From Paludibacter sp. (GTDB lineage: Bacteria; Bacteroidota; Bacteroidia; Bacteroidales; Paludibacteraceae): DNA of 43,813 nt. Below, in pieces: positions 12,289-13,966 of this stretch. The notes beneath the pieces are model-generated. The model searched no databases. It was not told the DNA's origin and saw nothing but the letters and a program-made list of their open reading frames with translations. Numbering within the stretch: the stretch's first letter is position 1; every line of letters starts with the position of its first letter. A program made the translations under genes and the position numbers. The stretch lies in NCBI GenBank assembly GCA_028691965.1, contig JAQUYE010000017.1:1-43813 (forward strand), written 5' to 3'.

Positions 12289-12579
12289 ATGAAACACAAG
12301 GAATTAATTACCGCTATTGCCATGAAACTTGATCGTCAGGAAGCTGATGTGGAGCAGTTGCTGCATAGCTCTGTGGAGCGAATTAAGTCACTGTTGGTTG
12401 AAGGTCAATCTGTTGCTCTGCAGGGGCTTGGGGTTCTGGAGGTGAAGCGCAAAGAAGAACGCTTATCAGTACATCCGATGACAAAAGTGCGTACAATGAT
12501 ACCACCCAAGCAGGTGGTTGGTTTTAAGCAAAGTCCTACCATGAAATCAAAATTAAAAGAACTTCCAAATTATGAATAA
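12289..12579 (+). CDS. HU/IHF-family DNA-binding protein
   Basis: This 96-residue protein has the HU fold: N-terminal helices (MKHKELITAIAMKLDR), then the beta-arm region with VALQGLGVLEVKRKEERLSVHPMT. The usual R-NP-T arm sequence is replaced by SVHPMTKVRTMIPPK, so it is a divergent HU. It starts 3 bases after rimO, and its last 8 bases overlap the next gene, which begins with a second HU domain. The pair may heterodimerise, as HU and IHF subunits do. Confidence 0.88.
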   Translation: MKHKELITAIAMKLDRQEADVEQLLHSSVERIKSLLVEGQSVALQGLGVLEVKRKEERLSVHPMTKVRTMIPPKQVVGFKQSPTMKSKLKELPNYE

Positions 12580-13966
12580 GGATAAAATCAGTACAGGCGA
12601 ACTTGCAGCGATGATTGCTACTGACCTAACATGTTCAGTGCGCGAAGCCGATGATTTTATGAGGGCGCTGATCCATATATTGGAGGAGCAGTTATTGGCA
12701 AGCGATAGTGTTAAAATAAAGGGACTTGGTACATTTAAACTTCAGTGGAACGCACCCCGGAAGAGTGTGGATGTTAATACAGCAGAAGAGATTGTAATTG
12801 AAGGTTATTATAAGGTTTCTTTTGCTCCGGAATCAGAATTGAAAGATCTTGTTAATGAACCATATGCACATTTGATGCCGGTTGTTTTAAGTACTTCTGA
12901 TGAAGATGAAGTGTTGATGACACCCGAAAAAACATCCGATCCGGATGAGGACTTGCAAGAAGAGCAAATCGCGGATACTGTGGATCCGGTTAAACTGGAT
13001 GAAGCCATGAAAGCCATTACAGAACAAGCGATGGAGATTAAAGACATACTCTCTGAAATGAGTATGATGGGAGTTTCGTCAACAAAAACTCAACAACCGT
13101 CGATGGTGTCGGAAGAGGTTAAAAAAGAAAAGAAAGAGATTCCTGTGGCAGTTGCTTCGACCCCGGTTATATCACCTGTGTCTGCTCCGACACCTCCTGC
13201 TCCAACATCCGTTGCACCCCCGGTTACCCCTCCAATCGTACCCCCGCCTGCACCTCCTGTTAGCGATGTGACTCAGGATCAGCAGGTGAAGCTGTCAAAA
13301 GAGCCATTGAAAGAAAAACCCATTGTTAAAAAGGAGTCTGTGATAAAGGATAGTATTCCGGATAGAATTCAACATTCAAGTAGTTCTCATCATTCACATA
13401 GTTCTCATTATAGTAGAAGAAGGTCTTCGAGAAGAAGATCAGTCTCCAATGGCTTGTGGCTTTTGTTGGTCGGAATTATTGCCGGTGGTATCATTACCTA
13501 CATTCTTAGTTCAACAGGTGTGTTGCCTGAGTTAGGTTTGTTTTCGGGTAAAAGTAAGTACATAGAAGTTGTTCCGATAACCAACGCAGCTGCCTTGACC
13601 GAAAATATAACTATTGCTGATAGTTTAGAGATGGATTCGACACAAGCAACCATCTCAAATAATCAGTCGACGGTTGATTCGATGCAAACTCTATTTGATA
13701 CTCCCCGAATATACACTGAGTTTATTGGAACGGAAGAGGTGCGCGAAGGAAGTCGTATGACGCGTATTTCGGAACGGCATTATGGAGCTAAAGAGTTTTG
13801 GGTGTATATTTACGAGGCAAACAGGGATATGTTGAAGTATCCCGATGATATCAAAATGGGTATGGAGCTCAAAATTCCGAAAGTTGACCCTCGGTTACTC
13901 GATAAAACCAACCCCCGAAGCATCGAATATGCGCTTAAATTACACGATGAATACCTGAAAAAATAG
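12572..13966 (+). CDS. HU-domain protein with transmembrane helix and C-terminal LysM
   Basis: This 464-residue three-part protein has an N-terminal HU/IHF-like domain (about 1-90; ISTGELAAMIATDL, then IKGLGTFKLQW and RKSVDVNTAEE). A long acidic then Pro/Val-rich linker covers about 100-290. A strongly basic Arg/Ser/His patch (SRRRSSRRRS) comes immediately before one transmembrane helix at about 293-315. A C-terminal LysM domain lies at about 387-436 (REGSRMTRISERHYGAKEFW, then IYEANRD, then KMGMELKIPK). By the positive-inside rule the HU part is cytoplasmic and the LysM part periplasmic. LysM binds peptidoglycan, so the protein could tether DNA to the wall. It is known to me only as an annotated family in Bacteroidales; the function is inferred. 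Confidence 0.85.
   Translation: MNKDKISTGELAAMIATDLTCSVREADDFMRALIHILEEQLLASDSVKIKGLGTFKLQWNAPRKSVDVNTAEEIVIEGYYKVSFAPESELKDLVNEPYAHLMPVVLSTSDEDEVLMTPEKTSDPDEDLQEEQIADTVDPVKLDEAMKAITEQAMEIKDILSEMSMMGVSSTKTQQPSMVSEEVKKEKKEIPVAVASTPVISPVSAPTPPAPTSVAPPVTPPIVPPPAPPVSDVTQDQQVKLSKEPLKEKPIVKKESVIKDSIPDRIQHSSSSHHSHSSHYSRRRSSRRRSVSNGLWLLLVGIIAGGIITYILSSTGVLPELGLFSGKSKYIEVVPITNAAALTENITIADSLEMDSTQATISNNQSTVDSMQTLFDTPRIYTEFIGTEEVREGSRMTRISERHYGAKEFWVYIYEANRDMLKYPDDIKMGMELKIPKVDPRLLDKTNPRSIEYALKLHDEYLKK

Follow-up and report, generated by a model that had tools for sequence, protein, structure and literature searches.

The stretch of DNA analysed here (the window) comprises 43,813 nucleotides of a Paludibacter sp. 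genome and contains, next to each other on the forward strand, two genes encoding proteins of the HU family. The first (12289..12579, +) encodes a short HU-family protein of 96 amino acids, which matches the HU/IHF profile PF00216 with an E-value of 2.3e-19 and 69.9 bits (cut-off, 22.4) and has the arm motif VHPMT, the proline of which is residue 63. The second is an open reading frame starting with ATG (12572..13966, +) and encodes a fusion protein of 464 amino acids, in which an HU domain is connected by a linker and a transmembrane helix to a LysM domain, as assigned by profiles, a PDB match, hydropathy and a structural model. The two genes share 8 nt (ATGAATAA, 12572..12579, +), an overlap that suggests translational coupling. 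The gene order is ftsY, rimO, short HU, fusion, moxR and a DUF58-like gene, where ftsY, rimO, moxR and the DUF58-like gene are putative names given from reading the sequence. PF00216 has four matches in this genome: two free HU genes and the two members of the pair.

A preliminary description of this locus had stated that the fusion gene follows ftsY and rimO, both of which are found upstream, and that it overlaps a second, short and divergent HU gene. The overlap is real, but the transcription is not divergent: the two genes share a strand, so that "divergent" may describe the sequence of the short HU protein and not the direction of its gene.

Domains and predicted topology of the fusion protein

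The HU domain occupies residues 1-95 (12572..12856, +), and its arm motif, VDVNTAEE, has no proline. In a Pfam profile search, residues 10-95 match PF00216 with an E-value of 1.2e-14 and 54.7 bits against the cut-off of 22.4. An AlphaFold model of the full-length protein (mean pLDDT, 66.7) consists of a confident HU domain, a low-confidence linker, a membrane helix and a LysM domain. The HU part has a pLDDT of about 90, and its best Foldseek match is 5lvt_A (E 4.7e-7); with the full-length model, Foldseek finds 39 chains at E ≤ 0.001, all of them HU or IHF by title. Both the profile score and the fold place the fusion protein in the HU/IHF superfamily.

The linker is a proline-rich segment of 183 residues (101 to 283) including 24 prolines, 30 acidic residues and 19 basic residues. 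Within it, the model (pLDDT about 60-80) and an alignment indicate a helix at residues 139-166 (12986..13069, +). This helix is conserved in the genus, with a consensus around EQAxEIKDILSEI, in an otherwise variable linker, and it is not conserved in the four other-family sequences of the alignment; a role as a docking or oligomerisation site is possible. The linker is followed by an arginine patch, RRRSSRRR (residues 282-289; 13415..13438, +), on the predicted cytoplasmic side, and by the transmembrane helix, which spans residues 292-314 in the model (13445..13513, +) and corresponds to a hydrophobic stretch at 293-316. Kyte-Doolittle hydropathy peaks once, at 2.26; the 15 positions before the helix contain six lysine or arginine residues and the 15 positions after it one.

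The LysM domain (residues 384-436; 13721..13879, +) is followed in the models by a C-terminal helix (residues 448-463; 13913..13960, +). It was recognised by the NCBIfam profile PRK11198, which covers the LysM of Kbp/YgaU, at residues 389-437 (E 1.9e-8) with 34.8 bits, a score below the whole-protein equivalog cut-off of 134. By sequence it also matches Escherichia coli Kbp in the PDB (E 5.5e-5). A model of the last 105 residues has a mean pLDDT of 88.4, and its best Foldseek matches are Kbp entries with a probability of 1.00 and E-values of 4.4e-3 and 4.6e-3, none reaching E ≤ 0.001, followed by contractile-tail and other LysM-bearing structures. PRK11198, Kbp and Foldseek thus identify the domain as LysM, both by its fold and by its homology to recognised LysM proteins. 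In the domain check by profile search that had been proposed for this protein, HU was found by PF00216 and LysM by PRK11198, whereas the Pfam LysM profile PF01476 had no match at E ≤ 1 in the whole protein or its C-terminal part and its cut-off was not reached, an absence to be read in light of HMMER filters that discard most weak matches. At the same threshold PF01476 matches five of 22 aligned fusion proteins, with a best E-value of 0.0014. Since it matches only these members and not the window protein, the domain is described here as a divergent LysM and a putative wall binder.

Recurrence and descent of the gene pair

The window protein alone was used as a query against 36 genomes, the window's own and others of its genus: 35 matched at E ≤ 9.1e-31, and the remaining one gave a weak HU match (6.7e-4). 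Of 24 further genomes from the order, five matched, one of them weakly. A profile built from 22 sequences found the HU part of the fusion in a frame of at least 300 amino acids in at least 48 of 295 genomes from the order, that of the window among them, and, in a phylum sample of 392 genomes, the HU part in 40 of the 47 listed genomes of f49, our code for one family in another class of Bacteroidota; both the order and the f49 counts were made by hand from the matches listed. Named carriers include Paludibacter, Dysgonomonas, Coprobacter and Bacteroides mediterraneensis, and metagenomic carriers belong to Parabacteroides, Muribaculaceae and Prevotellaceae, in a survey that retained 79 loci out of 373 relatives found. 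Altogether, 181 loci and the window (entered as L003-L005) yielded 160 open reading frames with both HU and LysM, which were reduced to 109 distinct fusions once copies without any difference from residue 41 onwards had been removed; the last 100 residues differ among all 109. They comprise 84 fusions from Bacteroidales and 25 from f49. Two of them (L089 and L102) end at a contig edge, leaving 107 with a whole HU domain (82 and 25). A held-out set consists of 14 new fusions from L182-L200, 19 loci of which five had previously been counted.

The occurrence of the HU-TM-LysM architecture in 109 distinct proteins excludes chance as its origin and, together with PF00216, hydropathy and the PRK11198 and Kbp matches, bears out the domain order given in the preliminary description, namely HU, long linker, arginine patch, single transmembrane helix and LysM. 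A single segment reaching a hydropathy of 1.6 is present in 81 of 84 Bacteroidales fusions and in all 25 f49 fusions; two of the three exceptions fall narrowly below 1.6 and one has two segments. The 15 residues preceding the helix contain more lysine and arginine than the 15 following it in 81 of 84 fusions from Bacteroidales and in 22 of 25 from f49. According to the positive-inside rule, this excess predicts a cytoplasmic N-terminus with the HU domain and a periplasmic LysM, in agreement with the earlier prediction. In Bacteroidales fusions, the linker on the cytoplasmic side is 57 to 341 residues long, and 51 to 130 residues separate the helix from LysM. Two fusions (L045:1701-3419 and L109:281-1960) have two tandem LysM matches after the membrane helix.

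Could the membrane part be incidental? The divergence of the domain from PF01476 would suit an ordinary nucleoid protein whose membrane tail is incidental and whose LysM has no role at the wall. Nevertheless, eight LysM core residues (F409, W410, Y412, I413, N417, P424, G430 and P436) do not vary among the 22 aligned fusions, and 107 of the 109 fusions, which had been selected for HU and LysM, have a hydropathy peak of at least 1.6 between these domains or elsewhere; we regard such an incidental tail as barely credible. It is rather improbable that the protein is a signalling device, in which LysM would sense the state of the wall or, like Kbp, an ion, and the HU dimer would alter local DNA structure and transcription. 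Kbp, named a potassium-binding protein, is indeed the nearest solved relative of the LysM domain, and the linker is long and flexible, but a cytoplasmic linker so variable in length and so poorly conserved in sequence is unlike a transmembrane signal relay, and Pfam finds no sensor domain.

The short HU gene lies directly upstream on the same strand in every distinct fusion whose HU domain is whole (107 of 107), and it is likewise upstream in all 14 of the held-out set. It overlaps the fusion gene in 94 of the 107 pairs, by exactly 8 nt in 62 and by 4 nt in 18, lengths that rest on mechanically called starts. Seven loci have no fusion reading frame, and the six of these with a 5′ end all have the upstream HU gene, leaving no counter-example; L059, L122, L123 and L139 extend past the contig end, with L059 and L123 looking like one gene, L133 lacks a start, and L154 has HU and the transmembrane helix while the LysM profile misses its C-terminus. 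At L140 (5001-6326), the fusion appears as two reading frames, an HU part ending in EEPKQ repeats and then a part with the transmembrane helix and LysM.

Is this pairing simply the consequence of a common operon? In Bacteroidales, rimO is upstream at 65 of 75 loci with at least 1 kb of flank, ftsY is upstream at 46 of 61 loci with 3 kb of flank, and moxR is downstream at 49 of 78 loci with 0.7 kb of flank. In f49, rimO is found at none of 25 loci (about 1.5 kb of flank), and no common theme was seen among the f49 neighbours in the two contexts read out of L216-L220. The short HU gene is retained at the loci that lack rimO in the examined flank, 10 of 75 in Bacteroidales and 25 of 25 in f49. 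Because the pair is kept where no adjacent rimO is found, a shared operon was rejected as the sole cause of the pairing. The HU-LysM unit is a gene pair, a conserved two-gene module, and this conservation supports the suggestion, already made in the preliminary description, that the short HU protein could be the dimer partner of the fusion.

A tree built from 74 HU domains, including 18 of the 82 Bacteroidales pairs and nine of the 25 f49 pairs, was used to examine the descent of the pair; many of its forks are unresolved because the alignment has 99 columns. Bacteroidales fusions form a single clade (99/99), as do f49 partners (98/91); f49 fusions were not recovered as one clade in this tree, and Bacteroidales partners by themselves are weakly supported (69/90). 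The partners of both lineages cluster together (93/98, just below the tool's star) and free HU proteins are separate from them (95/89, starred), while CCDC81-type HU domains are distant on long branches (100/99). Since the partners of both lineages cluster apart from free HU proteins, they resemble a dedicated paralogue; the probable history of the pair is a single origin in Bacteroidota or a transfer between these lineages. A mirror-tree analysis of co-divergence, made on the 30 loci among 65 in which all genes were present, did not single out the partner and the fusion, the partial r being 0.51 for partner-fusion and 0.67 for partner-moxR.

Arm asymmetry and the proposed function

In HU and IHF, the DNA-binding arm has an intercalating proline at its tip. 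This proline is present in none of the 82 Bacteroidales fusions, the tip residue of which is V in 73, I in eight and E in one, as opposed to all 82 of their partners. In the held-out set, all 14 fusions lack it in the arm, and 13 of the 14 partners visibly have NP; the sequence examined for one held-out partner (L185) stops short of the arm. The charge is similarly uneven. HU domains have an average net charge of -1.1 in Bacteroidales fusions, +4.3 in their partners and +6.1 in free HU proteins (n = 15, from 16 loci of which one, L206, yielded none), and for the arm alone the averages are 0.8, 3.8 and 4.4, respectively. The f49 pairs, which are located away from rimO (L157-L181), have the arm proline in both subunits (25 of 25 each); their arm charge is 3.0 in the partner versus 0.5 in the fusion, and the whole-domain charge is -1.3 versus +0.3.

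Among the free HU proteins, the arm proline is present in 10 of 15. In the five Bacteroidota proteins without it (L002, L208, L210, L212 and L213), NISKN replaces the NP motif at the arm tip. Its absence from these free proteins means that loss of the proline need not abolish DNA binding. The lack of the proline in all 82 Bacteroidales fusions combined with a mean charge of -1.1 suggests that the fused HU domain alone is probably a poor DNA binder, and the short partner thus looks essential rather than optional. In 20 aligned partners, E57, R58, P63 and P72-K74 are invariant.

A protein-adaptor role has been proposed for eukaryotic CCDC81, and the HU pair could likewise be a protein-protein adaptor that has lost DNA binding and recruits a cytoplasmic partner, for example one for division or wall synthesis, to wall sites marked by LysM. 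A fused HU domain deprived of arm proline and positive charge in Bacteroidales is what such an adaptor would have, and the genus-conserved linker helix could serve as its docking site. We consider this unlikely, as the partner retains the proline and a positive arm and its invariant residues are hard to explain without DNA.

We favour, with a probability of roughly 60%, the reading that the pair constitutes one envelope-spanning DNA anchor built on a dedicated split HU heterodimer, with LysM on the peptidoglycan. An outline of the proposed mechanism is as follows: the short HU protein and the HU domain of the fusion would form a dedicated cytoplasmic heterodimer, as the asymmetry of their arms in proline and charge suggests. 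The short subunit, whose arm is the more positive of the two and alone has the tip proline in Bacteroidales, would do most of the gripping and bending of DNA. The fused subunit would link the dimer, via the flexible linker and one membrane helix, to the periplasmic LysM, which would bind peptidoglycan so that the bent DNA is kept close to the wall. Such an anchor may participate in nucleoid positioning or segregation. To our knowledge, mechanical coupling of the nucleoid to the envelope is an open question in most bacteria. If the pair spans from DNA to wall, it would provide a direct and testable link in Bacteroidota, for example in Bacteroides, Parabacteroides and Dysgonomonas.

Comparison with known systems

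HU and IHF (PF00216) have the fold in common with the fusion. IHF consists of two unlike subunits, which the pairing of partner and fusion resembles. HU and IHF are soluble, whereas one subunit of the present pair is predicted to be anchored in the membrane and at the wall and has no arm proline in Bacteroidales. The LysM domain is closest, both by sequence and by structure, to that of Kbp/YgaU (PRK11198). Kbp differs in that it is not known to have a transmembrane helix or an HU domain and is named for potassium binding, and the fusion stays below the curated cut-off of PRK11198.

HubP/FimV polar landmark proteins combine a transmembrane region with a LysM-like domain in the periplasm and a large, acidic part in the cytoplasm, and end in a C-terminal TPR/FimV domain (PMC12918733). 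They are like the fusion in combining LysM, a transmembrane segment and a large acidic cytoplasmic part. They are unlike it in that the fusion begins with an HU domain and ends with LysM; the window fusion has no FimV or TPR match in Pfam or NCBIfam at E ≤ 1.

A precedent is the HU-CCDC81 type, in which HU-fold domains (PF18174 and PF18175) and, by eye, a hydrophobic segment are combined with a SPOR domain (PF05036). Such HU-CCDC81-SPOR proteins were reportedly proposed by Burroughs and colleagues in 2017 as DNA-membrane-peptidoglycan links. Of 60 related genomes, 52 score above the cut-off of PF18175, the genome of the window being one of them, and four of five scanned HU-CCDC81 proteins of related genomes have PF18174, PF18175 and a C-terminal SPOR; the protein at L067 has no SPOR match at E ≤ 0.01. 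In the window's own genome, another contig carries a protein of this type (L201:2193-2843; 216 amino acids; PF18175, 50.2 bits), the frame of which stops 21 bases before the contig end and has no SPOR as assembled. Membership of the fusion in the HU-CCDC81 family was considered and rejected: it scores 18 bits on PF18175 against a cut-off of 35, where short-frame HU genes also score about 20-27 bits, has no match to PF18174 or SPOR at E ≤ 1, and is separate in the tree. Whereas an HU-CCDC81 chain contains two CCDC81-type HU domains and SPOR, the fusion has LysM instead, and, unlike at the fusion loci, no other gene with an HU-profile match is found in the flanks of the 12 HU-CCDC81 loci (L062-L073).

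The idea of a tether from HU through the membrane to peptidoglycan is therefore not new. The preliminary description had known of no characterised mechanism for this architecture, a statement that is corrected by the HU-CCDC81/SPOR precedent and by a paper on the HU superfamily whose title names "chromosome partitioning" (Burroughs, Kaur, Zhang and Aravind, Cell Cycle 2017, PMID 28441108). No HU-LysM protein is among the literature matches listed, a set that does not cover the 2017 HU superfamily paper; PMC10434189 gives an HU gene and a LysM gene separately and has no bearing on the fusion. Because profile and tree set the pair apart, it is a variant outside HU-CCDC81, and by analogy it would work like the HU-CCDC81-SPOR proteins without being one of them. 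More tentatively, and with somewhat less than even confidence, we propose that the pair is an ancient two-gene device of Bacteroidota, distinct from HU-CCDC81/SPOR, in which an obligate, functionally split HU heterodimer physically couples the chromosome to peptidoglycan, so that these cells would possess two parallel tethers, one based on LysM and the other on SPOR. If this is true, an HU heterodimer that divides DNA bending and anchoring between its subunits would exist alongside the HU-SPOR design in related genomes.
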